From the NCBI GenBank assembly GCA_903825465.1, contig CAIKAR010000108.1, positions 1 through 49,571 of the forward strand: a stretch of 49,571 nt of DNA, written 5' to 3'. Below the pieces are notes generated by a model, which was given only the letters and a program-made list of their open reading frames with translations, ran no database searches and had not been told where the DNA came from. The translations under genes were made by a program, and so were the position numbers. Shown piece by piece: positions 3,962-49,571 of this stretch; the stretch's first letter is position 1; each line of letters opens with the position of its first letter. Source of the stretch: an uncultured Hyphomicrobiales bacterium. Its GTDB lineage: Bacteria; Pseudomonadota; Alphaproteobacteria; Rhizobiales; Beijerinckiaceae.

Positions 3962-4066
3962 GTTGCTCTTTCGCGGCGCCAAGGCCTCGTCTTCGCGGCG
4001 CCGAAGCCTCGTCGATTATTGCATCACAGGACAGGCGATTGCGCAACACGCACATTTTTGAAAGCC

Positions 4067-4139: not shown

Positions 4140-4161
4140 TCGCCCAACCGGAAAGAGACGC

Positions 4162-4938
4162 ATGTCGGCATCCGATTACAAAACAGTTCAAGGCGCCAAA
4201 CTTGAAATAGAGCGCCTTGGCCAGGGCGCGCCCCTTTTGCTGCTCCTCAGCGAGGAAGAGCAACTCGACATGGCCTCGCCTTTTGTCGCGGGCCTTGCGG
4301 AAAAGCATTCGATTATCGCGCCGCACTATCCGGGTTTCGGGCGATCCGAGCGTCCGGAATGGGTGTCGAGCCCCGACGACATCGCCTACATGCTGCTCGA
4401 TCTTCTCGACGCCGAGGGACTGCGGAACATTCCCGTGGTCGGCTTGTCGCTTGGCGGCTGGATCGCGCTAGAAATGGCGGTCAAGGACCGGGGCGTTTTC
4501 TCGAAGATCGCCTTGGTCGATCCACTCGGCGTTAAGCATGGCGGTCCTTTCGAGCGCGACATCCAGGACATCTGGACCTCGCTTCCCTCCAAGGTTTCGG
4601 CTTGGAAGTGGCGCGACGCGGAAAAGAGCAAACGCGACTTCGCCACGATGCGCGAAGAACTCGTGTCAATCCACGCCCGCAACATCGAGAGCTTCGCGCG
4701 GTTCTGCTGGGATCCCTACATGCACAACCCCAAGTTAAAGCGTCGGCTGCACCGCGTGACGGCGCCGGCGCTTGTCTTGTGGGGGGAGAACGATGGCGTC
4801 GTCACGACATCCTACGGCCGCGCGTACGCGGAGGCGTTGCCCAAAGCGAAATTCGAATCCGTCGCCGAAGCGGCCCATTATCCGCAAATCGAACAGCCCG
4901 CAGCGACCCTCGCCAGAGTCGCCGCCTTTCTCGGCTGA
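4162..4938 (+). CDS. Alpha/beta-fold hydrolase
   Basis: A 258-residue cytoplasmic hydrolase with a complete catalytic triad by inspection: nucleophile Ser96 in GLSLGGW, Asp211 in WGENDGVV, and His239 in EAAHYPQIEQP. The length and the PGFGRSERPEW segment resemble the hydrolases that cleave C-C bonds or esters in aromatic catabolism. It is the first gene of the block divergent from the AraC regulator and lies 79 bases before the luciferase-like oxygenase. A ring-cleavage-product hydrolase or lactonase role is inferred from context; the substrate cannot be read. Confidence 0.85.
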   Translation: MSASDYKTVQGAKLEIERLGQGAPLLLLLSEEEQLDMASPFVAGLAEKHSIIAPHYPGFGRSERPEWVSSPDDIAYMLLDLLDAEGLRNIPVVGLSLGGWIALEMAVKDRGVFSKIALVDPLGVKHGGPFERDIQDIWTSLPSKVSAWKWRDAEKSKRDFATMREELVSIHARNIESFARFCWDPYMHNPKLKRRLHRVTAPALVLWGENDGVVTTSYGRAYAEALPKAKFESVAEAAHYPQIEQPAATLARVAAFLG

Positions 4939-5017
4939 CTAAACCGCCAACGCCTGTTCCACCGCCCGGACTGGGCCAAATTCATCGAGGCAAACGCGCG
5001 AAGCGTGGAGGGACAAA

Positions 5018-6187: not shown

Positions 6188-6190
6188 TTT

Positions 6191-6216
6191 CCTTCTTCCC
6201 GCGCGCGGGAGAAGGT
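6191..6216. repeat. Intercistronic palindrome with a GGGAGAAGG core
   Basis: CCTTCTTCCCGCG followed by CGCGGGAGAAGG forms an almost perfect hairpin (one bulged T) that starts four bases after the oxygenase stop. Similar GGGAGAAGG/GGGAGAGG-rich pieces occur near 1383 and in the serC-serA gap (11609-11765). It looks like a degenerate member of the dispersed palindromic repeats common in this group of bacteria and could stabilise or partly terminate the mRNA. Confidence 0.4.
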
Positions 6217-6256
6217 GATCGCGGGGACCGCGCCCGCGAATGAGGAGGGGACGCCA

Positions 6257-7099
6257 ATGCAAAGCCGCTTCGTTTCGATCGATGGAATTCGCACCCACTA
6301 TTTCGAGGCCGGCGAACAGCACAAAGGCGCGCGTCCCTCGATCGTGTTGCTGCATTCCGCCGAATTCGGCGGTTGCGCCGAGACGTCTTGGGAATTCAAC
6401 TTGCCGGTTTTCGCCAAACAACGCCATGTGCTGGCGCCCGACCATCTCGGCTTCGGCCACACCGACAAGCTCATGGATTTCAACGCCCAGTTCGACAAGC
6501 GCATCTGGCATATCCGGCGGTTTATCGAGGCCATGTGCGTCGAGCGCGTCCACGTGATGGGCAGCTCCATGTCGGGCGGTCTGTGCCTGACGGTCGCGGC
6601 GCGGAAAAATCCCGACTGGCCGATCGTCAGCGTCGTGTGTTGCTCGGGCGGCGGCGACGCGCCGGACAACGCCGACCGCAAGACGCTCAACACCTACGAT
6701 GGCTCGCGCGATCACATGCGTCGCGTGCTCGACGTGATGTTCGTCGATAAGAAATGGGTGAACGACGAAGCCTACGTCGACCGCCGCTGGAGGCTCAGCC
6801 GCGTCCCGGGCGCCTGGGAGGCGACGGCCGCCGCGCGCTTCAAGGCGCCGTTTCCACGCGAAGGCGACGCCAAGGCCGAGCGGAATTCAATCGACTACGC
6901 CTCGATCAAGGTTCCGACGCTCGTCTTCGCCGGCAAGCACGACGGGTTGCGCGACCCCGGCTACACGGATGGCTTCGTGCCGAAAATCCACGGCGCGAAG
7001 CTGCATGTGTTCGAACACGCCGGGCACATGGGCAACATCGAGTGCGCGGACGAGTTCAACGCGGCGACATCGGCGTTTTTGACAGGTGTCGAGGGATAG
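6257..7099 (+). CDS. Alpha/beta-fold hydrolase (meta-cleavage-hydrolase-like)
   Basis: A 280-residue hydrolase. The nucleophile is Ser104 in MGSSMSGGL, where a serine replaces the second glycine of the usual GxSxG elbow. The acid is the Asp in AGKHDGLRDP and the base the His in EHAGHMGNIE. The ATG at 6257 is chosen because GAGGAGGGG lies just upstream; the frame is open 42 bases further but that extension has no good ribosome site. It is the second hydrolase of the block and is followed by a strong 25-base palindrome and then the FAD hydroxylase. The role is probably hydrolysis of a ring-opened or ester intermediate, inferred from context. Confidence 0.85.
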   Translation: MQSRFVSIDGIRTHYFEAGEQHKGARPSIVLLHSAEFGGCAETSWEFNLPVFAKQRHVLAPDHLGFGHTDKLMDFNAQFDKRIWHIRRFIEAMCVERVHVMGSSMSGGLCLTVAARKNPDWPIVSVVCCSGGGDAPDNADRKTLNTYDGSRDHMRRVLDVMFVDKKWVNDEAYVDRRWRLSRVPGAWEATAAARFKAPFPREGDAKAERNSIDYASIKVPTLVFAGKHDGLRDPGYTDGFVPKIHGAKLHVFEHAGHMGNIECADEFNAATSAFLTGVEG

Positions 7100-7112
7100 C
7101 GGCTCGCCGCGC

Positions 7113-7139
7113 GGAGGCCAAATCGTTGATTTGGCCTCT
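7113..7139. repeat. Perfect 11-bp-arm palindrome with GTT loop
   Basis: GAGGCCAAATC (7114-7124), loop GTT, then GATTTGGCCTC (7128-7138); a G-T pair extends the stem by one. The CCAAATCG half recurs at 7179-7186, just before the FAD hydroxylase. Only two T residues follow, so it is a poor intrinsic terminator. A regulator binding site, an mRNA-processing hairpin or a dispersed repeat are the options. Confidence 0.55.
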
Positions 7140-7205
7140 TGCGCAATGGATCGCGCGCCGGCATGAAACGCGGGAGCCAAATCGCGCGGATTTTTTGGAA
7201 GCACC

Positions 7206-8822
7206 ATGATCAAAACCCCTGTGCTTGTCGTCGGCGGCGGTCCCGTCGGCCTCGTCGTCGCCGGCGACCTCGCTTGGCGCGGCGTGCCCTGCCTTGAAGT
7301 CGAACGCGGCGACGGCGTCGTCGTCCAGCCAAAGATGGACATGCCGCATATCCGCACGCTGGAATTTTGCCGGCGCTGGGGGCTGGTCGAGCAAATCGAG
7401 CGCTCCGGCTACAACCGCAAGCAGCCGCAGGACAACATTTGGGTGACCGCGCTCATCGGCGGACACGAACTCGGCCGCGAGGCCTTCCCCTGCCCCGATG
7501 ACGAGCCCTATCCCGAACAATCGCCGCAACGGCGCGAGCGCGCGCCGCAGAATTTTTTCGACCCGGTCATCGCCCGCTGGACCAAAAGCTTCCCGACCGT
7601 CGATCTCAGATATTTCACGGAGCTTGTCGATTTCACCGAACACGCTGACCGCGTGACCGCGACGATCCGCGACGTGAAATCCGGCGCGACGGAAGAGGTG
7701 GAATGCCAATACGTGGTCGCGTGCGACGGGGCGGGTTCCACGGCGCGGGAGAAGCTCGGCATATCGATGACCGGCAACGCCGTTCTGACCTACACGACGA
7801 ACGTGATTTTCCGCTCGCGCGACCTCGCCAAAAAACAGACGATCAAGACCGGCTACCGCTACATCTTCATCGGGCCGGAAGGCACGTTCGCCACGATGGT
7901 CGCCATCGATGGATACGACAATTACCGTTTCTCGCTCGTCGGGGACGAGGGGAGGCGCAAGCTCACGGACGACGATCTGCTCGGCGAAATCCGCCGCGCG
8001 ATCGGCGGCCCCTGCGAAGTCGAGTTGATTTCGACGATGCCGTGGACGCGGCGCGAGCTCGTCGCCGACAAATTCGGCTCCAAGCGCGTTTTTCTGGTCG
8101 GCGATTCCGCGCATCAGCTTTCGCCCACCGGCGCCTTCGGCATGAACACCGGGCTACAGGAGGCCGTGGACATAGCGTGGAAGCTCGAGGCGATGATGAA
8201 GGGCTGGGGCGGCCCGAAGCTGCTCGCGACATACGAGATCGAGCGCAAGCCAGTCGCGGCGCGCAACGTCCGCGCGGCCGCGGAAAACCTGGCGCGCATG
8301 CTGGAGACCCGCAAGCGGCTGCCGCCACCGGAGATTTTCAAGCCAGGAGCAAAGGCCGACGCGGCGCGCAAGGAATACGGCGACTGGTACACCGAGCGCA
8401 TGTGGCACGAGTGGCACACCATCGGCATCCACATAGGCTACCGCTACGACCACTCGCCGATTGTCGTCGGAGACGGAACACATCCGCCGCCGCTTGAGGT
8501 TTCAACTTATATCCAGACATCGCACGCCGGTTGCCGCGCGCCGCACACCTGGATGAAGGATGGACGTTCGACCCTCGATCTCTTCGGCAGGGGCTTTGTG
8601 CTTCTGCGTCTCGGCGCCAACCCGCCCGACGGCACCTCGCTGCTCGCGGCGGCGAAAGCGCGCGGCGTGCCGATGCGCGAAGAACGCCTCGACGAGGAGC
8701 CCGTCAACAAAGTCTATGAAAAAAGCCTCGTTCTGGTGAGGCCCGATGGCCATGTGGCGTGGCGCGGAGACGCGCCGCCCGCCAACGCCGCCGCGTTGAT
8801 CGACACGGTGAGAGGCGCGTAA
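7206..8822 (+). CDS. FAD-dependent aromatic-type hydroxylase (PheA/TfdB family)
   Basis: A 538-residue class A flavoprotein monooxygenase. The N-terminal Rossmann motif VVGGGPVG is at residues 8-15, the VACDGAG (DG) motif near 170-180, and the FAD-ribityl motif GDSAHQLSPTGAFGMN near 299-314. A C-terminal thioredoxin-like extension is typical of phenol, 2,4-dichlorophenol and 3-(3-hydroxyphenyl)propionate hydroxylases. Such enzymes add one oxygen to an aromatic or heteroaromatic ring using NAD(P)H. The gene ends the plus-strand part of the AraC-linked block and faces a decarboxylase-like gene. The exact substrate is unknown. Confidence 0.88.
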   Translation: MIKTPVLVVGGGPVGLVVAGDLAWRGVPCLEVERGDGVVVQPKMDMPHIRTLEFCRRWGLVEQIERSGYNRKQPQDNIWVTALIGGHELGREAFPCPDDEPYPEQSPQRRERAPQNFFDPVIARWTKSFPTVDLRYFTELVDFTEHADRVTATIRDVKSGATEEVECQYVVACDGAGSTAREKLGISMTGNAVLTYTTNVIFRSRDLAKKQTIKTGYRYIFIGPEGTFATMVAIDGYDNYRFSLVGDEGRRKLTDDDLLGEIRRAIGGPCEVELISTMPWTRRELVADKFGSKRVFLVGDSAHQLSPTGAFGMNTGLQEAVDIAWKLEAMMKGWGGPKLLATYEIERKPVAARNVRAAAENLARMLETRKRLPPPEIFKPGAKADAARKEYGDWYTERMWHEWHTIGIHIGYRYDHSPIVVGDGTHPPPLEVSTYIQTSHAGCRAPHTWMKDGRSTLDLFGRGFVLLRLGANPPDGTSLLAAAKARGVPMREERLDEEPVNKVYEKSLVLVRPDGHVAWRGDAPPANAAALIDTVRGA

Positions 8823-8883
8823 TTGGCGACTGGGGATTGACCACGATAGGCCCCGTTGACGCGCGACCGGCGGGCTCCCAAGC

Positions 8884-9831
8884 TCAGCCCGTCAACCCCG
8901 CGGTCCCCTTCGCGAAGATGTCCTCCACCGAAATCTTCTTCGTGATGATGCCCTGGCTGAGCGCGTGGCCGATGAGGGTTTCGATGGTCTTGCGGTTGGG
9001 TTCGACGCCATAGGGCAGCGGATCCGAGCCCGAAATCGCCATCACCTTTTGATGCAGCGCGTCGGCGGCGTCGGGCTTTTCGATTTTTCCGGCCTTCAGC
9101 GCCTCGACATACAGCCGCTTCGACTTGGAGAAGGCGTTGAAGATATCGGCCGCGAGGCCGGGATGCTGCTCAAGCAGTTCGTCCCTGACGACAACCAGAT
9201 GATTGATCGGAAAAACGCCGGATTTTCTAAAAGATTCGAGTCCGGCCTCGGCGGCGTCGGGGATCAGTGGCGCGACATCGGGATGCTTGACATCGACGCC
9301 GATGGCCGCGGCGATCTCGCCGGAAATTAGCATGTCTTCCATTTTCTTGCCGGCCTCGATCGGCACAACGTTCTTCGGCGCGACATATTCGGCGACGTGT
9401 TCGTCGCCAGAAAGCACCCATGTCACCTTTGAAAGGTCGAGCCCGTACTGGGTCGCCATGATGCCGCGCGCCCACACGCCCGTCGTCACGGTGTAGCCGC
9501 GGTTGACGCCAACGCGCCTGCCCTCGAGATCCCTAGGAGCCTTCACGCCGGAATTCTTGTTGACGAGTATCGCGCCGTGGTGGAACTGGCGCACGAGCGG
9601 CGTCGGAATCGCCGTCATTTTCTTGCCGTGCTCCCGCGCGCAAATGTAGGTCGTGATCGCCATCTCGCAGATGTCGAATTCGTTGGCGCGCACCTGGCGC
9701 CGGAAGGCGGCGATCAACGGATCGACCTCGACGAACTCAAGCTCGCAGGTCGTCGGCTTCACAACGCCGTCCTTGAGGGCGCGGTTGTTGCCCTGCGTGC
9801 GCGTGACGGTTTTGTATTTCGGCGTGGACAT
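8884..9831 (-). CDS. 4,5-dihydroxyphthalate decarboxylase-like protein
   Basis: A 315-residue protein with the fold of periplasmic binding proteins but no signal peptide. The pattern NRALKDGVVKP, FDICEMAITTYI, AILVNKNSGVKAPRDLEGRRVGVNRGYTVTTGVWARG matches the Pht5-type 4,5-dihydroxyphthalate decarboxylase group, some of whose members are annotated as ABC substrate-binding proteins. The ATG at 9831 follows GGGAGCGAAGCCC. It converges on the FAD hydroxylase gene, ending 61 bases from it, so it may take part in the same aromatic pathway although on the opposite strand. Decarboxylase activity is plausible, not shown. Confidence 0.75.
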   Translation of the reverse strand: MSTPKYKTVTRTQGNNRALKDGVVKPTTCELEFVEVDPLIAAFRRQVRANEFDICEMAITTYICAREHGKKMTAIPTPLVRQFHHGAILVNKNSGVKAPRDLEGRRVGVNRGYTVTTGVWARGIMATQYGLDLSKVTWVLSGDEHVAEYVAPKNVVPIEAGKKMEDMLISGEIAAAIGVDVKHPDVAPLIPDAAEAGLESFRKSGVFPINHLVVVRDELLEQHPGLAADIFNAFSKSKRLYVEALKAGKIEKPDAADALHQKVMAISGSDPLPYGVEPNRKTIETLIGHALSQGIITKKISVEDIFAKGTAGLTG

Positions 9832-9955
9832 GGGCTTCGCTCCCGAGACGCGGCGTTTAAAGCCCTTTTACGGCGCGCGCGCCCCCGTGTGAAGAGGCGC
9901 GGGGATCGGCGACGGCCCGACGCGCGGCGGGAGCGCGCGCATGCCGCGGCGAAAC

Positions 9956-9980
9956 CGCGCGGCGCTTTCGACGCCGCGCG
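9956..9980 (-). terminator. Possible serA terminator hairpin
   Basis: Nine-base arms CGCGCGGCG and CGCCGCGCG with a 7-base loop lie about 20 bases past the serA stop on the transcribed strand. The following T-tract is weak (GTTTC), so this may only pause or protect the transcript. Confidence 0.35.
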
Positions 9981-9999
9981 ACAACAAGTTTTGAAAGTC

Positions 10000-11586
10000 T
10001 CAGAACTTCAGCGCCTTGACTTGCTTCACGCCGGGGATGGCCTGAACCTTAGCCAACGCGGCCTCGGGCACGGCGCCATCGACTTCGACAAGCGCGATGG
10101 CGGAGCCGCCCGGATTGTCGCGGCCCAGCGCGAAGGTCGCGATGTTGACGCCCGCCTCGCCCAGCAGGCCGGCGAAGCGGCCGATGAAGCCGGGCTTGTC
10201 CTCGTTTGTCACATAGATCATCGACGGCGCGAACTCCCCGTCGATCTTGATGCCCTTGATGCTGACGATGCGCGGCTTGCCATCGTGGAAAGCCGTGCCG
10301 GAGATCGAGCGTTCCTGCGTTTCGGTCGTGATGGTCAACGTGACGAGCGACTCGTAGTCGCCTTCCGCGGCGCGGGTGACCTCGTCGATGACAATGCCGC
10401 GGTCCTTGGCGACGACGGGCGCGGACACCACGTTCACATCCGACAGCAGCGGCCGCAACAGGCCGGCGATGGCCGACGACGTCAACGCCTTGGTCTTCAA
10501 TTCCGCCACCGCGCCTTCATAGACGATGGTGACTTTCTTGATGCTTGTTTCCGTGAGTTGGCCGGCGAAGGATCCAAGTTTTTCGGCGAGCGCGATAAAG
10601 GGTTTTAGCCGCGGCGCCTCCTCCGCCGTGATCGACGGGAAGTTGATGGCGTTCGAAATCGCGCCGCGCGTCAAATAGTCCGACATCTGCTCGGCGACCT
10701 GCAGCGCGACGTTCTCCTGCGCCTCGTTGGTGGAGGCCCCGAGATGCGGGGTGCAAACGACGTTGGGATGGCCGAACAGCGGGTTGTTGACGGCGGGCTC
10801 CTCCGAGAACACATCGAAGGCGCCGCCCGCGACGTGCTTGGAATCCAACGCCGCGCGCATCGCCGCCTCGTCGACCAGTTCGCCGCGCGCGCAGTTGATG
10901 ATCCGCACGCCCTTCTTGGCCTTGGCGATGTTTTCCGCGCCCATGATGCCGCGCGTCTGCGGCGTCAGCGGCGTGTGCAGCGTGATGAAGTCGGCGCGTT
11001 TCAGCAACTCGTCGAGTTCCACCTTCTCGACGCCGAGCGCCTTGGCGCGTTCCGGGCTGAGATAGGGATCGAACGCGATGACGCGCATGCGCAACCCCAC
11101 CGCGCGCTCGGCGACGATGGAGCCGATGTTGCCGCAGCCGATGATGCCCAATGTCTTGGCCGTGATTTCGACGCCCATGAAGCGGTTCTTTTCCCACTTG
11201 CCAGCCTGTGTGGAGGCGTCGGCGGCGGGTATCTCCCGGGCGAGCGCGAACATCATGGCGATGGCGTGCTCGGCGGTCGTGATCGAATTGCCGAACGGCG
11301 TGTTCATCACAATGATGCCGCGCGCCGTCGCCGCCGGTATGTCGACATTGTCGACGCCGATGCCGGCGCGGCCGATGACCTTCAGATTCGTCGCGCGCTC
11401 AAGCAGCTTCGCTGTGACCTTGGTGTTCGAGCGGATGGCGAGGCCGTCGTAGGCGCCGATGATTTCGGCGAGCTTGTCCTTGTCCTTGCCGAGGTTGGGC
11501 TGGAAGTCGGTCTCGACGCCGTGGTCCTTGAAGATTTGAACGGCGGCGGTCGAGAGGGCGTCGGATATGAGAACGCGGGGGGCCAT
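10000..11586 (-). CDS. serA: D-3-phosphoglycerate dehydrogenase
   Basis: Oxidises 3-phosphoglycerate to 3-phosphohydroxypyruvate with NAD+, the first step of serine synthesis. The 528-residue long form has an N-terminal substrate domain starting MAPRVLISDAL, GRAGIGVDNVDIPAAT, the NAD motif GCGNIGSIVAERA, HTPLTPQTRG, INCARGELVDE, the catalytic HLGASTNEAQENVA, an intervening domain, and a C-terminal ACT domain (about 455-528) likely to sense serine. I place the start at the ATG at 11586, which has GGAGAAC upstream. The frame is open upstream, but those residues come from intergenic repeat-like DNA. It is the second gene of the serC-serA operon, 179 bases after serC. Confidence 0.96.
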   Translation of the reverse strand: MAPRVLISDALSTAAVQIFKDHGVETDFQPNLGKDKDKLAEIIGAYDGLAIRSNTKVTAKLLERATNLKVIGRAGIGVDNVDIPAATARGIIVMNTPFGNSITTAEHAIAMMFALAREIPAADASTQAGKWEKNRFMGVEITAKTLGIIGCGNIGSIVAERAVGLRMRVIAFDPYLSPERAKALGVEKVELDELLKRADFITLHTPLTPQTRGIMGAENIAKAKKGVRIINCARGELVDEAAMRAALDSKHVAGGAFDVFSEEPAVNNPLFGHPNVVCTPHLGASTNEAQENVALQVAEQMSDYLTRGAISNAINFPSITAEEAPRLKPFIALAEKLGSFAGQLTETSIKKVTIVYEGAVAELKTKALTSSAIAGLLRPLLSDVNVVSAPVVAKDRGIVIDEVTRAAEGDYESLVTLTITTETQERSISGTAFHDGKPRIVSIKGIKIDGEFAPSMIYVTNEDKPGFIGRFAGLLGEAGVNIATFALGRDNPGGSAIALVEVDGAVPEAALAKVQAIPGVKQVKALKF

Positions 11587-40052: not shown

Positions 40053-41081
40053 TCAGGTCGCGCCCAGCTTCGCGCGGACGAGCTTCGCGCCCGCCACCAT
40101 CGCGCATATCTTGCCGTAGGCGACGTCGCGCGGCAGGTATTTGAGACCGCAATCGGGCGCGACGATCAATCTTTCCACCGGCGCGTGCGGCAGCGCGCGC
40201 TCGATGCGGGCGGCGACGACCTCCGGGGTTTCAATCGCGTGGTTTTCGAGATCGATCACGCCCAGAATAATGTGTTTCGACGACAGGCCGCGCAACACGG
40301 CGAGATCGAGATTGGGTTGCGCCGTCTCTATCGACACCTGGTCGAACTTCGAGCGCTCGAGCTCGGACAAAAACGCGTAGGCCGGCGGCTTGTTCTTCAC
40401 CAGCGCGGCGTAGCCGAAACAAAGGTGGATGGCGGTGGGCACCTTCACCCCGTCGAGCGCGCGGTCGAGCGCCTCGACGCCGAACGCCCGGGCCTGAACG
40501 GCGCGCGCCTGCATGTAGGGCTCGTCGATCTGCACGACATCCGCGCCCGCGGCGACCAGGTCCTTGATCTCCTCGTTGACGCAGGCGGCGTAGGCCATCG
40601 CGACCTTCGCCTCGTCGCCGTAGTGAAAATCCTTCGCCTGCATCGCCATGGTGAAGGGGCCGGGCACGGTGATCTTTATTTTGCGGTCGGTGTTGCGGCG
40701 CAGAAACTCGACGTCCCGGACTTCCACCGGATATTTGCGCCTCAGCGGGCCGATCACGCGCGGCACAAGGTCGGGCTTGCCGCTGCGGCTCGGCACAACG
40801 GCGGGGTTGTCGATGTCGAGCCCTTCAAGCGCGGTGGCGAAACGGTTCGAATAGGATTCGCGCCGCATTTCGCCGTCGGTGACGATATCGATCCCAGCCC
40901 GCTCCTGATCGCGGATGGCGAGCAGCGTCGCGTCGTCCTGCGCCTGCTCGAGAAACTCCGGCGCGACGCGCCACAGTTCCTTCGCGCGCACCCGCGGCGG
41001 CGGCCGCGTCGCCAGCGTCTGGCGGTCGATCAGCCAATCGGGCTGCGGATAGGAGCCGACAATCGTGGTTGGAAGCAGCAT
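40053..41081 (-). CDS. MetE C-terminal-like methyltransferase
   Basis: A 342-residue protein corresponding only to the catalytic C-terminal barrel of cobalamin-independent methionine synthase. The zinc ligands are present: His and Cys in IHLCFGY, Glu in VSIETAQPN, and Cys in VAPDCGLKYLPRD. VGSYPQPDWL is the usual start and IVTDGEMRRESYSN is conserved. The N-terminal half of full MetE is missing, as in archaeal-type and several uncharacterised bacterial homologues. It is the last gene of the Mo-hydroxylase operon, 31 bases after the large subunit stop, so it may move a methyl group to or from the pathway substrate rather than make methionine. Confidence 0.85.
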   Translation of the reverse strand: MLLPTTIVGSYPQPDWLIDRQTLATRPPPRVRAKELWRVAPEFLEQAQDDATLLAIRDQERAGIDIVTDGEMRRESYSNRFATALEGLDIDNPAVVPSRSGKPDLVPRVIGPLRRKYPVEVRDVEFLRRNTDRKIKITVPGPFTMAMQAKDFHYGDEAKVAMAYAACVNEEIKDLVAAGADVVQIDEPYMQARAVQARAFGVEALDRALDGVKVPTAIHLCFGYAALVKNKPPAYAFLSELERSKFDQVSIETAQPNLDLAVLRGLSSKHIILGVIDLENHAIETPEVVAARIERALPHAPVERLIVAPDCGLKYLPRDVAYGKICAMVAGAKLVRAKLGAT

Positions 41082-41096
41082 GGGTTCCTCCGTTCG

Positions 41097-41131
41097 CGCC
41101 GGCGCGCGCTTGTCACGCCGGCGCGCGCTTG
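41097..41131. repeat. 16-bp direct duplication at the end of the large-subunit gene
   Basis: CGCCGGCGCGCGCTTG occurs at 41097-41112 and 41116-41131, separated by the three bases of the stop codon (plus-strand TCA). The last codons of the large subunit (KRAPA) are thus copied just beyond its stop, in the short gap before the MetE-like gene. It looks like a recent slippage duplication. Confidence 0.6.
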
Positions 41132-43437
41132 GCTTCCTCGATCATGCGCCACACCCGTTCCGGCGTGGCGGGCATGACGATGTCCTTGACGCCGAGATGC
41201 GACAAGGCGTCGACCATGGCGTTGGCCATCGCCGGCAACGCGCCGACACAGCCAGCCTCGCCCGCGCCCTTGACGCCGAGAAGGTTCGTCTTCGTCGGCG
41301 TGGGCATCGCCTTGATGTCGATGTGCGGAAACAACTCCGCGTGCGGCATGGCGTAGTCCATGAACGAGCCGGTGAGGATTTGCCCGCTTTGATCGTCGAA
41401 GCGGATCTCCTCCATGACCATTTGGCCAACCCCCTGCGCGATGCCGCCGACGATCTGGCCCTTGAGCAGCTTCGGGTTCATCACGACGCCGACATCGTCG
41501 GTGACGACGTATCTCTCAATCGACGTGACGCCGGTCTCCGGATCGATCTCCACCTCGATGATGTGGCAGCCGTTGGGATAATTCTGCCGCGAGGCGTGGA
41601 AGACGGCGTTGGCGTTGAGGCCGATCTCCATGCCTTGCGGCAGGTTCTTCGGGCTCATGGCGGAGCGCGCCACCTCCCTCATCGTCAGGCTGCGGTTTGT
41701 CTTGGGGCTGGTGAAGACGCCCTCCGCGTAGTCCACCTCCTCCACTTGCAGCATGTGCGCGGCGATCCGCCTCGCCTTCGCCACGACTTTCTCGGTGGCG
41801 GAGAAAACCGCCGAACCCCCGAGCGCCGACGTGCGCGAACCACCGGTGCCCTCGCCCAGAAACACCTGGTCGGTGTCGCCTTGCAAATAGTGGATCTCGT
41901 CCGGGTGTATGCCGAGTCGATCCGACACGATCTGCTTGAACACCGTTTCGTGCCCCTGTCCCTGCGTCACCGACCCGGCGACGAGCGTGATTGAGCCTGT
42001 GCGGTCGAAGCGCACTTCCGCGCCTTCGAACCCCGGCCCCGCGGCCTTCTCGATGGTGTAGGAAATGCCTATGCCACGCAGTTTTCCACGTTCGCGCGCC
42101 GCGGCGCGCCGGGCTTCGAAGCCCTTGTAGTCGACCATCTCCAGCGCGCCGTCGAGCACCTTCTCGAACTCGCCGCAATCGTAGTTGAACGACAGCCCGG
42201 TTTGAAACGGCATCGCGTCCGGCGAAATCATGTTGCGGCGGCGCAGTTCGGCCGGATCGACGCCAAGCTCGTCGGCGGCGATGTCGACGAGACGCTCGAT
42301 CACGAAGGCGGCCTCCGGCCGGCCGTTGCCGCGGAAGGGCCGCATGATGTTGGTGTTGGTGTAGCAGCCCGTCACGTCGACATGGACGGCTGGCGTCGTG
42401 TAAACGCCGGCGAGCGTGCCGAGATTGCTGTAGCTGCCGCTGTCCGAACCCGGCTGCGTGTAGGCGCCGACGTTGTTCACGCTGCGCACCCGCAGGGCCG
42501 TGAACTTGCCGCGCTCGTCCAGGGCGAGCTCGGCTTCCGTGTGGTTGTCGCGCCCATGCGCGTCGGCGAGAAACGCCTCCGAGCGCGACGCCGTCCACTT
42601 CACGGGGCGGCTCAGCGTCTTCGAGGCGAGCAGCACCATGCCGACCTCGTTGAACACGCCCGACTTCATGCCGAAACTGCCGCCGATGTCGCCGGCGACC
42701 ACGCGCAGCTTGCTTTCCGGCACATGCAATGTCGCGGAGAGCTCCTCGCGGAAATTCAGCGCTCGTTGCAGCGTCGTGTAGCAGGTGTAGCGGTCGGCGG
42801 CGCGGTCGTAGTCGCCGATCGAGCCGCGGGTTTCCATGGTCGCGGCGTAAACTCGGCTGAGGCGGAACTTGCGCCTCACCACATGGCGGGCGGCGGCGAT
42901 CGCGGCGTCGGTCTTCGCCTTGTCGCCTTCGAGATGCACGAAGCAAATGTTGTTCTCGCAGTCCTCGTGCACCAGCGGCGCGCCCGCCTCGGCGGCGCGG
43001 ATCGAGTCGGTGACCGCGGGCAGCGGCTCGTAGTCGATTTCCACCAGTTCAGCGGCGTCCTGGGCCCGCGCGGCCGTGTCGGCGACAACGAAAACGACGG
43101 GGTCGCCGACGTAGCGAACCTTGTCGCTTGTCAGGGCCGGAAACTTCGGCCGATACATTTTCCCGCCGTCGCGGCGCTTCTTGCCGCCGGCGGTCGGCAG
43201 GTCGCCGAAGCCGGATTTCGCCCAGTCCTCGCCGGTCAACACGGCGACGACGCCGGGGGCTGCTCGCGCGCGCGAAACGTCGATCTTCAAAATCCGCGCG
43301 TGCGCGTGCGGGGAGCGAACAACGTGTCCGTAGGCCATGTTCGGCAAAACCATGTCGTCGACATAGCGCCCGCCGCCGCGCAAAAGGCGCGGGTCTTCGA
43401 AGCGGGACACCGGTTGGCCGAGGGCGAACTCACCCAT
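41113..43437 (-). CDS. Mo-hydroxylase large subunit A (xanthine dehydrogenase/CoxL family)
   Basis: A 774-residue molybdopterin-binding subunit of the xanthine oxidase superfamily. LRGGGRYVDDM and SPHAHARIL open the chain, GDIGGSFGMKSG lies at 249-260, FRGNGRPEA at 368-376, and GVKGAGEAG near 740 carries the catalytic glutamate. The loop is not the AYxCSFR of true form I CO dehydrogenase, so this is a hydroxylase of organic substrates. It follows the FAD subunit gene after 36 bases. With the second large subunit upstream, the operon encodes two alternatives for one FeS/FAD module. Confidence 0.92.
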   Translation of the reverse strand: MGEFALGQPVSRFEDPRLLRGGGRYVDDMVLPNMAYGHVVRSPHAHARILKIDVSRARAAPGVVAVLTGEDWAKSGFGDLPTAGGKKRRDGGKMYRPKFPALTSDKVRYVGDPVVFVVADTAARAQDAAELVEIDYEPLPAVTDSIRAAEAGAPLVHEDCENNICFVHLEGDKAKTDAAIAAARHVVRRKFRLSRVYAATMETRGSIGDYDRAADRYTCYTTLQRALNFREELSATLHVPESKLRVVAGDIGGSFGMKSGVFNEVGMVLLASKTLSRPVKWTASRSEAFLADAHGRDNHTEAELALDERGKFTALRVRSVNNVGAYTQPGSDSGSYSNLGTLAGVYTTPAVHVDVTGCYTNTNIMRPFRGNGRPEAAFVIERLVDIAADELGVDPAELRRRNMISPDAMPFQTGLSFNYDCGEFEKVLDGALEMVDYKGFEARRAAARERGKLRGIGISYTIEKAAGPGFEGAEVRFDRTGSITLVAGSVTQGQGHETVFKQIVSDRLGIHPDEIHYLQGDTDQVFLGEGTGGSRTSALGGSAVFSATEKVVAKARRIAAHMLQVEEVDYAEGVFTSPKTNRSLTMREVARSAMSPKNLPQGMEIGLNANAVFHASRQNYPNGCHIIEVEIDPETGVTSIERYVVTDDVGVVMNPKLLKGQIVGGIAQGVGQMVMEEIRFDDQSGQILTGSFMDYAMPHAELFPHIDIKAMPTPTKTNLLGVKGAGEAGCVGALPAMANAMVDALSHLGVKDIVMPATPERVWRMIEEAKRAPA

Positions 43438-43473
43438 GACAGTCCTTCCCTTCGTTGTTCGCGCTCGACGGCC

Positions 43474-44271
43474 CTAAGCCGTCAACGCCTCGACGGCGCG
43501 GCGCGCGTAGACCTTGACGAGATGCGCGCGATACTCGGCGCTGCAATGGATGTCGCCCATCAGATCGGCGTGCGGCACGGCGATGTCGGCGACCGCCGCG
43601 GGGGTGAACGACCTGTCGAGCGCTTCTTCCATCGCCTTGACGCGGAACGCGCAGGGGCCGGCGCCGGTCACCGCGACGCGCGTTCCCGCCGCGAATTGCG
43701 CCACCATCACGCCGACGACGGCGTAGCCGGAAGCGGGATGGCGGAACTTCAGGTAATGCGCGCGCTTCGGCTTTTTGAAACGCACCGAGGTTATGATTTC
43801 GCCCGGCCGCAGCGCGGTTTCGAACAGGCCGAGGAAATAATCGTCGCCGCGGATCGAGCGTTCGTTGGTGACAACGGTCGCGTCGAGGCCCAACACCGCC
43901 GCGGGATAGTCGGCCGCCGGATCGGAGTTCGCCACCGACCCGCCGATGGTGCCGCGATGGCGCACGGCGGGGTCGCCGATGTTGCCGGCGAGCGCCGCGA
44001 GCGCGGGAATCGCCGCCGCGACCTCCAGCGACGTCGCCACGGCGAAATGCGGCGTCATGGCTCGGATGACAACCTCGTCTCCCTCGATGGAAACGCCGCG
44101 CATGTCGCCAAGGTCGGCGAGGTCGATCAAGTCGCTAGGTTGCGCCAGCCGGTTCTTCAACGTCGGCAACAGCGTCATGCCGCCGGCGAGCAGCTTGCCG
44201 TCCTCGGCGCCCTTCAGCTTCGCGGCGGCGTCGGCGAGCGAGGCGGCGCGGTGATAATCGAAGTTGTGCAT
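43474..44271 (-). CDS. Mo-hydroxylase FAD subunit (CoxM family)
   Basis: The 265-residue medium subunit passes electrons from the FeS protein to the external acceptor. FAD contacts are visible in AGGMTLLP (29-36) and TIGGSVANSDPAADYP (108-123), and the C-terminal CoxM-like domain follows. The ATG at 44271 is preceded by GAGGAG that overlaps the end of the FeS gene region, giving an 10-base gap. It is shared by the two large subunits of the operon. Confidence 0.93.
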   Translation of the reverse strand: MHNFDYHRAASLADAAAKLKGAEDGKLLAGGMTLLPTLKNRLAQPSDLIDLADLGDMRGVSIEGDEVVIRAMTPHFAVATSLEVAAAIPALAALAGNIGDPAVRHRGTIGGSVANSDPAADYPAAVLGLDATVVTNERSIRGDDYFLGLFETALRPGEIITSVRFKKPKRAHYLKFRHPASGYAVVGVMVAQFAAGTRVAVTGAGPCAFRVKAMEEALDRSFTPAAVADIAVPHADLMGDIHCSAEYRAHLVKVYARRAVEALTA

Positions 44272-44281
44272 CGCGCGCTCC

Positions 44282-44779
44282 TCAGGCTTCCGCGGAGTTG
44301 ATTCGCGCCGCGTTTATTTTCGCGCTGCCGTCGAGAATGGCCTCGACGATGCCTTGATAACCGGTGCAGCGGCAGATGTTGCCTTCCAGCTCGTGGCGCA
44401 CGGTCTTCTCGTCCGCGCCCGGCTTGCGGCGCGCGATATCGACGGCCATCATCACCATTCCGGGCGTGCAGAAGCCGCATTGCAATCCATGGTGCTCGCG
44501 GAAGGCCTCCTGCATGGGATGCAGAGTTCCGTCCGCCGCCGCGAGGCCCTCGATGGTCGTGATCGACCTGCCCACGGCCTGCACGGCGAGCATGGTGCAG
44601 GATTTCACCGCCACGCCGTCGACATGCACGACGCAACATCCGCATTGCGTTGTGTCGCAGCCGACATGCGTGCCGGTGAGGCGCAAGTGCTCGCGGATGA
44701 ATTGCGCGAGCAGGGTCCGCGCCTCCACCTGGCCCGCGACGGCGGCGCCGTTCACGGTCATTTTCACGTCGTACAACAC
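44282..44779 (-). CDS. Mo-hydroxylase 2Fe-2S subunit (CoxS family)
   Basis: A 165-residue electron-transfer subunit with two 2Fe-2S clusters: a plant-ferredoxin-type cluster on Cys41, Cys46, Cys49 and Cys61, and the helical-domain cluster on Cys101, Cys104, Cys136 and Cys138 (QCGFCTPG and NICRCTGYQ). The start is GTG at 44779 with GGGAGGAGCGG upstream; an ATG six codons later is an alternative. It lies between large subunit B and the FAD subunit. Confidence 0.94.
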
Positions 44780-44807
44780 GTCCGCTCCTCCCGATGTCCG
44801 TCGCCGC

Positions 44808-47138
44808 TCACGCGGCCTTGTTCGATTTGGCGGCCTCGATGGCGCGCCACACGCGCTCGGCCGTCAGCGGCATGTCGATATGGCGCACGCCGTAGCCGCG
44901 CAGCGCGTCGGCGACCGCGGAAACGATCGCCGGCGGCGCGCCGCACGAGCCCGCCTCGCCCGCGCCCTTGACGCCGAGCCAGCTCGACTTGCTCGGCACC
45001 ACGTTGAACCGCGCGTCGATATGCGCCATGTGCGCCGCGCGCGGCATGCCGTAGTCCATGTAGGAGGCCGTCAACAACTGGCCCGCCTCGTCGTAGACGA
45101 CGTCCTCCGTCAGCACCTGTCCAACGCCTTGCGCGACGCCGCCATAGACCTGGCCATGCACGATGAAGGGATTCAGCACCACGCCGCAATCGTCGACGGC
45201 GACATAATTCAACAATTCGATCACGCCGGTTTCCGGATCGACTTCGAGTTCGACCACATGCGCGCCGTTCGGAAAATTCTCGCTGTCGCCCTTGTAGGTC
45301 GTCTCCTCGTCGAGGCCGGGCGTCACGCCTTCCGGCAGGCGCGCGGGGTCGCGCGACGCGCGCGCGACTTCGTCGATCGTCACGCCGCCGGCGCCGGCGC
45401 TGAAAACGCCGGCCTCGAAAACAACGCGCTCGGCCTCCGTCTGCAGCAGGTGCGCGGCGATCTTGCGCGCTTTGACAAGTATGGCGTCGCAGGCCTGCTT
45501 GACGCCCATGCCGCCCACCATCGACGAGCGCGAGCCGAACGTGCCGATGGAGGTCTCCGGCGAATTCGCGGTGTCGCCGTTGACGAGGGCGACGCGGTCG
45601 TAGTCGACGCCCAGAAACTCGTGCACCAGTTGCGAATAGACAGTCGCGTGGCCCTGCCCGTGCGAGTAGGTGCCGGCGATCACAGTCACGCCGCCGTCGT
45701 CCTCGAAGCGCACGCGCATGCCCTCGAGCGGCCGGCTGCCCGCGCCTTCGATGAACACCGCGAGGCCGATGCCGCGCTTCTTGCCGCGTTTTTCGGAAAC
45801 CGCGCGGCGGGCCTCGAAACCCTTCCAGTCCGCCGCTTCCAGCGCCATGTTCATGGTGCCGTCGAAATCGCCGCTGTCGATCTCGAAGCCGAGATGCGTC
45901 TTGTAGGGCATCTGCTCCGGGCGAATGAAATTGCGCCGGCGGATTTCCTCGCGCGACATCTCGAACGCGTCGGCGGCCTTGTCCATCAAGCGCTCGGTGA
46001 TGTAGTTCGCCTCCGGTCGCCCGGCGCCGCGATAAGTGTCGGTGCAAACCGTGTTCGTGAACGTGGGCCTCACCGAAAAATAGAATTCCGGCACATGGTA
46101 GACGCAGGGAATGATGCGTCCGCCGCCGTCCATCGGCAGCCGCAAGCCGTTTTCCGAGAGATACGCGCCGACATTGACCATGGTCGCGAGCTTCATCGCG
46201 ACGACCCGCCCCTCGGCGTCGAAGCCCATTTCAGCGTGGTTGACCTGATCGCGGCCGTGGTAGTCGGACACGAACGTCTCCGCCCGGTCGCCGCGCCATT
46301 TCACCGGGCGGCCCAGCGTTTTCGCCGCGAAGGCGACGCACACGGTCTCCGGATACATCTTGCTGCGCACGCCAAAGCCGCCGCCCGTGTCGATGGATAT
46401 GATCCGCGACTTCGCGGCGGGAATGCCCAGAAGCTTGGCCAGCATCTGCTGGATGCGCCGCCCGCCCTGCGTTGGCGACCACACGGTCAGTTGGCCGTCG
46501 GCCGCGTCGAATCGCGCCGCGACGACGCGCGGCTCCATCGGGCTTGGAGCGAGGCGGTTGTTGACGAGGTCGACCGAAACGCGCTTGCGCGCGCCCGCGA
46601 GCAGCGCCTCCACCTTTCCAGCGTCGCCATATTCCCAATGCACGACCTCGTTCGTGCCAAGCCCGGGCCACACCAGCGGCGCGCCTTCCGCCAGCGCGCG
46701 CATGCCGCCGGCGACGGCGGGCAAGGGTTCGAATTCGATTTCAACCGCCTCGGCGGCGTCGCGGGCGCGCGCCTGCGTCTCCGCCACGACGATGGCGAGA
46801 CATTCCCCGACGAAGCGCGTGTGCGTCGTTGGCAGCACCTCGCGGGTCGGCTTGCGCATGGGGGAGCCGTCGCGGTTCTTGTAGTCGGCGTCGTTGACAA
46901 GCCGTCCCACCCCGGCGGCGGCGAAGTCCGCGCCGGTGTAGATCGCGATCACGCCGGGCATGGCCTTGGCGACGCTCGGATCAACACTCAAAAGCCGGGC
47001 GTGGGCGTGGGGGGAGCGGACAAAGGCGGCCCAAGCTTGCCCGTCGAGTTCAATGTCGTCGGTGAATTGGCCCGCGCCGGTCAAAAGGCGCGTGTCTTCC
47101 TTGCGCCTGACCGGTTGCCCGATGCCGAACTGACCCAT
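44808..47138 (-). CDS. Mo-hydroxylase large subunit B (xanthine dehydrogenase/CoxL family)
   Basis: A 776-residue molybdopterin subunit, full-length like subunit A but clearly different along its length. Marks are [38 protein letters not shown] (250-264), YRGAGRPEA at 369-377 (the form II-type loop) and GVKGAGEAG near 742 with the catalytic glutamate. It is the first gene of the operon, started at 47138 after GGGAGAC, and divergent from the bicupin gene. Two intact large subunits around one S/M pair is unusual and suggests two related substrates or consecutive hydroxylations. Confidence 0.92.
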
Positions 47139-47187
47139 GTCTCCCGTTCCCGCCGACGCCGCGCCAAATCGGGGGCTTTAAACAAGT

Positions 47188-47205
47188 TTGCGCTCCGGCG
47201 CGCAA
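47188..47205. promoter_or_regulatory. Short palindrome in the hydroxylase/bicupin divergent region
   Basis: TTGCGC, six bases, GCGCAA lies roughly 50 bases upstream of the hydroxylase operon start and 110 bases before the bicupin start. IclR proteins bind short palindromes, and an IclR gene follows the bicupin gene. Candidate operator only. Confidence 0.35.
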
Positions 47206-47317
47206 GGGGGCGCGCTTGACCGGCGGCGCGCGCGCGTCGATGATTGTTCCCAAGGGATGGCTCGCGGCCGTCCAGCCCAGCGATCCGGTTCGGGCCAGAT
47301 TTTTTCGGGAGGACCAC

Positions 47318-48451
47318 ATGAGCGACCAGCCGGCGCCGCGCTACGGCATCGACCCCTATCTCGACTGGGTGAAGAAAGAGGGCCTCGCCGTCCACGAGGG
47401 CGACTACGCCTATCTGATCGGCGTGGAGACCAAGCCCTGGGCGCGCGTTGGCGTGGACGCCGCCGTCTGCCATCTTAAGGGCCGCGGCGATTTCGCGACG
47501 CTGTTCGTGTTCGATATTCCGCCCGGCGGCTCGACCGCCCCGCAAAAGCACCTCTACGAGGAGGTTTGCTACGTGCTCGAAGGCTCGGGCTCGACGCAGC
47601 TCGAAATGCCCGACGGCTCGAAGCGCAGCTTCGAGTGGGGCCCGCGTTCGATGTTCGCCATTCCGCTGAACGTCAAGTACCGCCATTTCAACGCCAGCGG
47701 GGTGAAACGCGCGCGTTTTTCCAGCACCACCGACCTGCCGATGAAGTTGAACGCCTTCGTCGACGAGAAATTCATCTTCGACAACGATTGGGCTTTCACG
47801 ACGCGCGTCGGCAAGGACACCTACTACGAGGGCCAGGGCGACCTTCACATGGTCCGTCCCGGCAACCACATGTGGGAGACGAACTTCGTGCCGGACCTCG
47901 ACGCGCTGGAACTGCACGCCTGGAGCGAGCGCGGCGGCAATTCCACCAACATCATGTTCGTGCTCGCCAACGGCATCATGCACGCGCACATCTCGGAAAT
48001 GCCCGTCGGCACCTACAAGAAGGCGCACAAGCACCACAACGGCGTGCACGTCATGTGCGTGTCGGGCTCCGGCTATTCCCTGCTGTGGCACGACGGCGAG
48101 AAGGACTTCCGCCGCATCGACTGGGAGCACGGCATGGTGTTCCCGCCGGCGACCCAGCAGTTCCACCAGCATTTCAACACCAGCAAGCGGCCCGCGCGCT
48201 ATTTCGCCACCGCCGTCGGCGGCCTCCGCTACCCCTTCACGGAGGGCATGCGGCGCGCCACCGGGGGCACGACGGACGGCAAGGGAGGCGCGCCGGTGGC
48301 GACATCGACAAGCGTGAAGCTCGGCGGCGACCAGATCGAGTACGAGGATCAGGATCCCCGCATCCACGAGATGTTCCTCGAGGCCTGCCACAAGAACGGC
48401 GTTGAGCAGAAAATGGACAAATTCTTCCCGACGCGGCATGCCGCGCAATAG
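47318..48451 (+). CDS. Bicupin protein
   Basis: A 377-residue protein with two cupin barrels: the first about residues 65-140 (KHLYEEVCYVLEGSG, then FEWGPRSMFAIPLNVKYRHFN), the second about 225-310 (HKHHNGVHVMCVSGSGYSLLWHDG, then WEHGMVFPPATQQFHQHFN). Metal-ligand histidines and glutamate are present in the second and partly in the first. The layout resembles gentisate-dioxygenase-like and related bicupins, but I cannot assign a reaction. The ATG at 47318 follows GGGAGGACC. It leads the plus-strand group with the IclR regulator and HyuA gene and is divergent from the Mo hydroxylase. Confidence 0.85.
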   Translation: MSDQPAPRYGIDPYLDWVKKEGLAVHEGDYAYLIGVETKPWARVGVDAAVCHLKGRGDFATLFVFDIPPGGSTAPQKHLYEEVCYVLEGSGSTQLEMPDGSKRSFEWGPRSMFAIPLNVKYRHFNASGVKRARFSSTTDLPMKLNAFVDEKFIFDNDWAFTTRVGKDTYYEGQGDLHMVRPGNHMWETNFVPDLDALELHAWSERGGNSTNIMFVLANGIMHAHISEMPVGTYKKAHKHHNGVHVMCVSGSGYSLLWHDGEKDFRRIDWEHGMVFPPATQQFHQHFNTSKRPARYFATAVGGLRYPFTEGMRRATGGTTDGKGGAPVATSTSVKLGGDQIEYEDQDPRIHEMFLEACHKNGVEQKMDKFFPTRHAAQ

Positions 48452-48484
48452 CGGCGCGGCGGCGGGCCACGCGGGACAGGCGCG

Positions 48485-49306
48485 ATGAAAGAGACGCCGG
48501 AACAGCCGACGGAAAACGGGTCGCGCTACCGGGTCGAATCGATCTCGCGCGCCCTGGGCGTGCTCGCCCACCTTGACGAAGTTGGCGAAACCAGCGTGTC
48601 CGCGATCGCCGAGAGCGCGCGCGTCACGGAAAATTTCGTCGCCTCGGCCCTTGGCGCGCTTGAGCGGCGCGGGCTGGCCCGCCGCGTCGGCGCCGATCCG
48701 GACAAATGGGCGCTGGGCTTCGGCTGGCTTCAACTCGCCAACGCCAGCCGCCGCCAGATCGATCTTCGCGAGATCGCGCTGCCGGTGATGCGCCGCATGC
48801 GCGACGATGTCGACGAAACCATCGTCTTGAGCTTCGTCAGGCGCCACCGCCGCGTCAACGTCGAATTCATCGAAAGCACCCAGAACGTGCGCCGCGTCCG
48901 CCAGGTCGGCCCGGAGATACCGCTTTATGTGGGCGCCGCCGGCCGGGTGCTTCTGTCGGGCTTTTCGGAGGCCGAGCTTCTCGCCTATCTGGCGTCGGCC
49001 GCCGCCGCCGACGGCGTCGTCATCAATGGCCTCGACGTCGAGGCCTACGCGCGCCAGGTCGCCGTGGTGCGCGAGACCGGCGTCGCCGTGGCCGAACGCG
49101 AATTCTCGGTCGATGTTTGCGCGGTCTCGACGCCGATCCGGGACCACAACGGGCGCGTCGTCGCCGCGCTGTCGATTTCGGCGCCAGCCGACCGCTTCAC
49201 GCCGTCGCTGCGCCAGACGGCCGAGCGCGTCGCGCGGATCGGCGCGCGGGAGATTTCGACGCTTGTCGGCTTTGTCGGCGGCCGTCCGGCGCCCTCTTCG
49301 GACTAA
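48485..49306 (+). CDS. IclR-family transcriptional regulator
   Basis: A 273-residue regulator with an N-terminal winged helix-turn-helix (about 18-75; SISRALGVLAHLDEVGETSVSAIAE, then NFVASALGALERRGLARR) and the IclR ligand-binding domain (LPVMRRMRDDVDETIVL, PLYVGAAGRVLLSGF, AEREFSVDVCAVSTPIRDHNGRVVAALSISAP). It lies 33 bases after the bicupin stop and before a HyuA-type gene. IclR proteins usually control adjacent catabolic genes, so it is the likely regulator of this cluster and of the divergent Mo-hydroxylase operon. Confidence 0.93.
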   Translation: MKETPEQPTENGSRYRVESISRALGVLAHLDEVGETSVSAIAESARVTENFVASALGALERRGLARRVGADPDKWALGFGWLQLANASRRQIDLREIALPVMRRMRDDVDETIVLSFVRRHRRVNVEFIESTQNVRRVRQVGPEIPLYVGAAGRVLLSGFSEAELLAYLASAAAADGVVINGLDVEAYARQVAVVRETGVAVAEREFSVDVCAVSTPIRDHNGRVVAALSISAPADRFTPSLRQTAERVARIGAREISTLVGFVGGRPAPSSD

Positions 49307-49406
49307 CGCCGGCCCGCTGGACAAAGGCCTCTGTTACCGCCAGAAGGGCGCCAATATCGACCGCCCACGCGGCCAACAACGCGTTACACGAATGGATCGA
49401 GAGGAA

Positions 49407-49571
49407 ATGGAAAACAATTCAGGCCACCCGGCCCGGACGGGCACGCGGCTCGCCGCCGACATCGGCGGCACGTTCACGGATGTCGCCGCCTTTCGCGAGG
49501 GCACCGGCGAGTTGCTGTACGGCAAGGCGCTGTCGACGCCGGCCCGCCTCGTCGAGGGCATCTCGCAGGGC
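49407..49571 (+). CDS. Hydantoinase/oxoprolinase (HyuA) family protein, N-terminal part
   Basis: The first 55 codons of a gene that continues past the window. RLAADIGGTFTDVAAF at residues 14-29 is the signature phosphate-binding start of the HyuA/oxoprolinase/acetone carboxylase beta-type family, ATP-dependent enzymes that open cyclic amides or carboxylate ketones. An ATG at 49407 with GAGAGGA upstream is preferred to one at 49392. A partner HyuB gene would be expected downstream, outside the window. Confidence 0.85.
   Translation, partial: MENNSGHPARTGTRLAADIGGTFTDVAAFREGTGELLYGKALSTPARLVEGISQG

Follow-up and report, generated by a model that had tools for sequence, protein, structure and literature searches.

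How one pair of electron-transfer subunits comes to lie between two different catalytic subunits, and what compound such an operon would degrade, are the questions raised by the window analysed here, the 49,571-nucleotide contig CAIKAR010000108.1 of an uncultured Hyphomicrobiales bacterium (Beijerinckiaceae; assembly GCA_903825465.1), which is contig C108 of a 3.9-Mb genome in 142 contigs. Its right end carries an operon for molybdenum (Mo) hydroxylases of the xanthine dehydrogenase (XDH)/Cox family, with two large subunits (LgA and LgB; L) and a single iron-sulfur (FeS; small, S) and FAD (medium, M) subunit, beside a divergent group that begins the genes of a HyuAB-type enzyme. The operon probably encodes two Mo hydroxylases built from a shared FeS/FAD scaffold that accepts either LgB or LgA, serving to degrade a (hetero)aromatic carboxylic acid. 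Gene content, conserved gene order, intact motifs, large subunits encoded apart from any scaffold (orphans) and an altered motif in HyuB are established by the sequence.

Two catalytic subunits around one FeS/FAD pair

The features, with lengths in amino acids (aa), are as follows.

40053..41081, minus strand: MetE-like protein, single-domain, 342 aa, last gene of the Mo operon; Pfam PF01717 (Meth_synt_2) at 134 bits; IDEP, H-x-C and DCG motifs
41113..43437, minus strand: LgA (large subunit A), 774 aa, Mo-hydroxylase catalytic subunit; PF01315, PF02738, PF20256; FRGNGRPEAA and GVKGAGEAG motifs; own tree clade
43474..44271, minus strand: FAD (medium) subunit, 265 aa; PF00941 (FAD_binding_5) at 133 bits
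44282..44779, minus strand: FeS (small) subunit, 165 aa, GTG start; PF00111 and PF01799 (Fer2 and Fer2_2); cluster cysteines
44808..47138, minus strand: LgB (large subunit B), 776 aa, first operon gene; PF01315, PF02738, PF20256; [10 protein letters not shown] and GVKGAGEAG motifs
47318..48451, plus strand: bicupin, about 377 aa; the reading frame opens at 47216, and the start was set by comparison with the paralog in L010; Cupin_2 at 40 bits
48485..49306, plus strand: IclR-family regulator; PF01614 (IclR_C)
49407..49571, plus strand: HyuA-type ATP-binding subunit, 5' part, likely start 49407; DIGGTFTD, DMGGT and GAAPGP motifs; the window end cuts the gene

Open reading frames (ORFs) and Pfam matches agree with the order on both strands that an earlier note had described from the letters of the window, and all ORFs of the cluster translate cleanly. 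The five minus-strand genes are spaced by 28, 10, 36 and 31 nucleotides, and transcription runs LgB, FeS, FAD, LgA, MetE-like. Every component of a xanthine-oxidase-family large-medium-small (LMS) enzyme is present: both large subunits have the hammerhead and two molybdenum-cofactor domains (Ald_Xan_dh_C, MoCoBD_1 and MoCoBD_2) with the catalytic Glu, the FAD subunit is of the FAD_binding_5 type, and the small subunit is a Fer2/Fer2_2 protein whose cysteine spacing fits the pattern typical of two [2Fe-2S] clusters.

The claim that two intact catalytic subunits surround one FeS/FAD module was borne out, with the GGxFG, [QH]GQGH and GAGE motifs kept in 10/10 LgA and 12/12 operon-type LgB sequences (window included; two of the latter, L117 and L141, come from contigs that stop short of LgA). 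The active-site loop distinguishes the groups: it reads FRGNGRPEAA in all ten operon LgA, YRGNGRPEAA in all 14 orphan LgA and [10 protein letters not shown] in all 12 operon-type LgB. A FastTree phylogeny of 119 large subunits, a sample biased to LgB relatives, assigns LgA to a clade of 36 members and LgB to one of 47 (support 1.0 each); the two are old, separate clades. The ten operon-type LgA are monophyletic (support 1.0) and stand beside the 14 orphan LgA (own support 0.988), with a joint support of 0.997.

LgB has matches of at least 58% identity in 42 of 50 other genomes of the genus; the best match is 46% in the 149 remaining genomes of the search, and outside the genus the best among GTDB contigs is 51%, in a Rhodospirillaceae metagenome-assembled genome (MAG; L144). 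Members of the genus are filed under Beijerinckiaceae, Rhizobiales, Hyphomicrobiales, Roseiarcaceae and a few genus names, and isolate names suggest that they come from lake water. The four genes LgB-FeS-FAD-LgA stand side by side in the window and, among 79 loci viewed, in loci of ten other species (L104, L105, L106, L112, L114, L116, L118, L122, L140 and L169), many of them on short contigs; contig ends cut LgA in L106 and LgB in L169. The core recurs in ten other species, which answers the check for conserved gene order that the earlier note had proposed, and is therefore not a chance cluster. The exact gene set of the earlier note fared differently beyond that core, as the whole is not a conserved unit: across the ten relatives' loci the bicupin is found in none, the MetE-like gene in two (L104 and L105), and orthologs of HyuA, HyuB and the small gene that follows them in two (L104 and L140). 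LgB-FeS-FAD is also found with no LgA adjacent, in L107 and L127-L131.

Large subunits encoded apart from FeS and FAD genes

LgA (P0002) has a match at E <= 1e-220 in 48 of 51 genus genomes, and in most of the genus it is encoded in another locus. In 14 stretches of 11-20 kb with an orphan LgA (64-67% identical to LgA), nine of which were additionally read gene by gene, FeS and FAD are absent from all 14 (tblastn, E <= 1e-5). In a two-contig genome (G022), the contig that has LgA at 4.77 Mb has its nearest FAD match at 5.40 Mb. As LgA stands elsewhere in most of the genus, the earlier proposal that two large subunits imply successive hydroxylations is not required.

The window's own genome has 14 full-length XDH/Cox-type large subunits but seven FAD genes. 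A FAD gene stands within about 3 kb of six of these large subunits, including both of the window's; for the other eight the contig has none, and seven of the eight also lack an FeS gene there; a tblastn search at E <= 1e-3 in L217-L222 and L058 found no FeS or FAD, confirming the orphans. A further FAD gene sits at the very end of contig C89. Contig C91 (L216, region 2484-10389) carries an FeS-FAD pair, 67% and 60% identical to the window's, with no large subunit, and a HyuA/HyuB-like pair (38% and 31%) a few kb before it. Across the genus, match counts for PF20256 and FAD are 15-31 and 2-11, against 6-13 and 2-7 in four other genomes of the family, all inflated by split matches in genus and control alike.

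Sharing of this kind has a precedent in Sulfolobus tokodaii, where GAOR2 and GAOR3 have one M/S pair in common, as proven by purification (PMC4726530). As there, one FeS/FAD pair (the 'hostmer') would serve two different large subunits ('guestmers') of the same superfamily; in S. tokodaii their genes stand away from those for M/S, a feature that LgA shows in most of the genus. The archaeal system differs in that its L genes are unlinked to M/S and the sharing was proven on purified enzymes, whereas in the window M/S is flanked by the two L genes within a single operon and the system is known from genes. The genomic marks of a GAOR2/3-type system are all found: the L genes outnumber the M/S genes, L genes occur unlinked to them, and one M/S pair has no L of its own. 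The shared-scaffold principle is already known from one archaeon.

A second large-FeS-FAD-large operon was found in a Rhodospirillales MAG (L147, 4471-12397), where the two large subunits are sisters; it lies near a MobA-like NTP transferase gene and a gene that is XdhC-like by inspection. In a Rhodospirillaceae MAG (L158, 3968-11766), tandem LgA-like large subunits are followed by a CoxG-family gene, with no FeS or FAD match in the stretch, and L180 resembles it by inspection.

Neighbouring genes and the class of substrate

Comparison with characterised enzymes does not name the substrate. The best NCBIfam models for LgA, LgB, FeS and FAD are glyceraldehyde dehydrogenase subunits (NF041018-20), but all four miss the equivalog cut-offs (LgA 590 and LgB 600 against 790 bits, FAD 201 against 350, FeS 203 against 290), and no NCBIfam cut-off is reached by LgA or LgB. 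Form I CO dehydrogenase, which has the active-site Cys loop AYXCSFR, does not fit either: LgB has YRGAGR and LgA FRGNGR in its place and scores fall below the NCBIfam cut-offs for that enzyme. In a phmmer search of the PDB, CoxL is the top match of both large subunits, with quinoline 2-oxidoreductase and 6-hydroxypseudooxynicotine dehydrogenase behind it; these share superfamily, domain order and catalytic Glu with LgA and LgB, but none stands out, and the tree of sampled relatives gives LgA and LgB each a clade of its own.

Around the ten relatives' operons are an IclR gene (6/10, divergent from the operon), a PEP-mutase-fold lyase (6/10), an SDR-family protein (6/10), a thiamine pyrophosphate (TPP) enzyme (5/10), a gentisate-dioxygenase-like cupin (5/10), nitrile hydratase alpha (5/10) and a class II aldolase (4/10), and an isochorismatase-family hydrolase lies upstream of LgB in two (L106 and L118). 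Contig L202 (the same as L084) begins with an LgB fragment followed by IclR-HyuA-HyuB and the small gene, and L199 carries IclR-HyuA-HyuB, small gene, lyase, TPP enzyme, cupin and aldolase before stopping at IclR. A (hetero)aromatic acid is the favoured substrate class because the cupin, aldolase, TPP enzyme, lyase, isochorismatase and nitrile hydratase are among the neighbours in part of the loci. A TctC-family receptor gene inside the operons of L063 and L057 suggests an organic acid.

Two further observations concern these genes. Nitrile hydratase alpha and split beta genes with an SDR gene stand at the far end of orthologous operons in L062 (93-2184), L063, L075 and L078. The window's genome has four bicupin paralogs of at least 59% identity (window 47318-48451; L010 7374-8492; L011 9905-11020; L012 9312-10424), three of them near Mo-hydroxylase genes and the one in L011 also adjoining an EutA gene.

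The last gene of the operon, also found 3' of LgA in L062 and L063, encodes a protein with the catalytic domain and the zinc-site motifs of MetE (IDEP, H-x-C and DCG), at 342 aa against about 750 aa for the two-domain MetE. It scores below every matching NCBIfam MetE cut-off (best model 262 against 392 bits). The catalytic barrel with zinc-site motifs is common to other single-domain MetE-like (B12-independent methionine synthase) proteins, from which the window's gene differs in its position 3' of a Mo-hydroxylase large subunit. Of four matches above 60%, one of them in Nonomuraea, the three that were viewed (L206, L207 and L208, 61-64%) all lie in plasmid gene runs with ring-cleavage dioxygenases: intradiol-type in Pseudoroseomonas by Pfam, with the same annotation in Roseomonas, and LigB-type in Aminobacter. 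These relatives suggest a methyl-transfer role in aromatic catabolism, and with such neighbours demethylation is a possible role.

An alternative that has some standing, and that we regard as possible though less probable than the favoured class, is a pathway for an aldehyde or a carbocyclic aromatic acid instead of an N-heterocycle, the large subunits being dehydrogenases of the glyceraldehyde dehydrogenase kind. The best NCBIfam models of all four subunits speak for it, as do the gentisate-dioxygenase-like cupin, the class II aldolase and the dioxygenases beside the MetE-like relatives on three plasmids; however, all NCBIfam scores lie far below the equivalog cut-offs, and HyuAB, together with the isochorismatase and nitrile hydratase of some relatives, suggests an amide nitrogen. 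The earlier note's heterocycle or lactam is plausible as a substrate, but HyuAB is no plain hydantoinase and the neighbours favour a (hetero)aromatic acid.

HyuAB, a small cysteine protein and the proposed scheme

The gene cut at the window's end continues on contig C4, whose end is identical (100%) to the last 141 bases of the window, the only match besides the window itself and a plain assembly overlap. C4 carries the remainder of HyuA, the 586-aa HyuB, a small protein of 122 aa that has a CxC motif, and a protein of the PEP_mutase fold, for which the oxaloacetate decarboxylase PA4872 is the top PDB match. The join is sound because the order HyuA-HyuB-small-lyase is unbroken on single contigs of the relatives L062 and L199. 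The expectation of a HyuB gene to the right of the window was thus correct; as for the expected transporter, the next one, a Bmp-type ABC binding protein, comes behind a MoxR-type AAA gene and further genes that follow the lyase. The MoxR-type gene, its neighbours and the Bmp-type ABC genes are probably unrelated to the operon. At the other end of the window a Resolvase-family serine recombinase is encoded (143-685), and a second small cluster of catabolic appearance lies at 5018-8822, with a luciferase-like monooxygenase, an alpha/beta hydrolase and a FAD aromatic-ring hydroxylase.

The ATP motifs of HyuA (DxGGTxTD, DxGGT and GxxPGP) are intact. In the PDB, HyuA and HyuB both match N-methylhydantoinase best, and the NCBIfam models that fit them best are those of caprolactamase, with scores far below the cut-offs; CapAB and N-methylhydantoinase, which share the HyuA motifs and the fold family, are the nearest characterised matches, but differ in lacking the additional small protein and in having H-x-x-D where HyuB has H-x-x-H. 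The predicted metal site of HyuB is Asp49-His108-His111-His133, compared with the Asp-His-Asp-His tetrad of hydantoinase and oxoprolinase. H-x-x-H (GSHLNH) occurs in 13/13 sequences (6/6 aligned, including the window's; 4/4 further ones of the genus; 3/3 from Microvirga, a Comamonadaceae plasmid and Streptomyces), and H-x-x-D in 4/4 aligned PDB relatives. In N-methylhydantoinase, one of these four, Gln replaces the last His, which shows that the tetrad varies within the family. The metal in the HyuB of caprolactamase is bound by Asp41, His99, Asp102 and His124, of which all but Asp41 are described as family-wide conserved (PMC8453981).

Three Cys and one His are invariant among 12 aligned sequences of the 122-aa protein, some other members having no such His. 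The protein adjoins HyuA or HyuB in 21 of 22 places; it makes a third gene, where HyuAB hydantoinases and oxoprolinases have two. A comparison of folds gave no match for it. Its profile, run against three sequences, finds homologs directly 3' of HyuB in Microvirga (E-value 9.3e-27) and on the Comamonadaceae plasmid (6.2e-11), and gives no match for the neighbour of HyuB in Streptomyces. All three records have a fumarylacetoacetate-hydrolase-family gene close to HyuB, and no Mo hydroxylase is annotated in these stretches, whose annotation tables are incomplete. As it is also found elsewhere, in Microvirga and on the plasmid, where no Mo hydroxylase is annotated, HyuAB with its small protein looks like an independent module recruited beside the operon. 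In the anaerobic degradation of indoleacetate by Aromatoleum, a Mo-type hydroxylation reportedly precedes a lactamase step. That pathway, like the one proposed here, is one for an aromatic acid with a HyuAB-family enzyme, 2-oxoindoleacetyl-CoA gamma-lactamase; its substrate is CoA-bound, and hydantoinase-type clusters are described as having two genes only (PMC5214803).

That HyuAB and the small protein form an ATP-dependent carboxylase of the acetone or acetophenone carboxylase kind, in place of a ring-opening hydrolase, is unlikely. A third, small Cys gene 3' of HyuB does resemble the gamma gene of acetone carboxylase clusters (PMC5214803). However, HyuB at 586 aa has the size of a hydantoinase, the best matches are N-methylhydantoinase and caprolactamase, a PDB search with the profile of the small protein gave no carboxylase chain up to an E-value of 10, and the invariant Cys of that protein number three in 12 sequences, not four.

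Two alternatives bear on the sharing of subunits itself. Since enzymes of the xanthine-oxidase family are often dimers of LMS units, LgA and LgB could belong to one obligate hetero-complex, (LgA-M-S)(LgB-M-S); co-linearity in 11 loci, window included, and the L147 operon are in its favour, but it is made improbable by the separate loci of LgA and LgB in most of the genus and by the LgB-FeS-FAD units with no adjacent LgA. Equally improbable is that LgA stands in the operon for co-regulation alone and uses another M/S pair, as the several FAD genes per genome and the pair on C91 would allow, given that LgB and LgA enclose the FeS and FAD genes at spacings of 10-36 nucleotides and that a FAD match also adjoins LgA in G018 and G049.

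With a shared scaffold, the system probably works and arose as follows. One FeS and one FAD subunit would form the electron-transfer scaffold, with LgB or LgA as the catalytic subunit. LgB-FeS-FAD would be the older unit, which LgA, elsewhere in the genus encoded alone, would have entered once, in the ancestor of the sub-clade, its loop changing from YRGNG to FRGNG. Judging by their family, the Mo enzymes would put water-derived oxygen on the ring, and the neighbours suggest that the products are handled by a ring-cleaving cupin, class II aldolase, TPP enzyme and PEP-mutase-fold lyase. HyuA would phosphorylate a cyclic amide or carbonyl with ATP, HyuB with its Asp-His-His-His metal site and the small Cys partner would finish ring opening, and IclR would control the divergent genes working with the Mo enzymes.

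Several points weigh against this scheme. The sharing is read from genes, not from proteins, and nearly all genomes are fragmented drafts. The orphans of the window's genome are just 38-46% identical to LgA or LgB, and an orphan large subunit might work with any one of several M/S pairs or use other acceptors. The control for the gene counts is soft: the ratio of PF20256 to FAD matches, 2.3-7.7 in 21 genus genomes, is still 1.6-3.3 in the four other family genomes. LgB of L106 (G011) has one in-frame stop and may be broken or misread there. Some of the genes that point to the substrate are missing next to the window's own operon: neither nitrile hydratase nor isochorismatase was seen there, and the genome's gentisate-dioxygenase-like cupin and TPP enzyme sit on contig C73 (L197).

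A broader reading, plausible but slightly less probable than not, is that mix-and-match Mo hydroxylases occur genus-wide, with few FeS/FAD scaffolds and a larger, separate catalytic repertoire, the window showing a guest subunit captured into the operon of its host, and that HyuAB belongs to an undescribed three-part enzyme whose metal site is rich in His and whose third part is a small Cys protein, present also in Microvirga and a betaproteobacterium. The HyuB motif and the small partner would mark a separate branch of the HyuAB family, whose hydrolase or carboxylase chemistry is directly testable. If sharing is true, operon-based counts of Mo hydroxylases are too low, orphan 'xanthine dehydrogenase family' large subunits become interpretable, the captured LgA identifying its partner, and the operon would be a simple system for how one redox scaffold takes several catalytic subunits.

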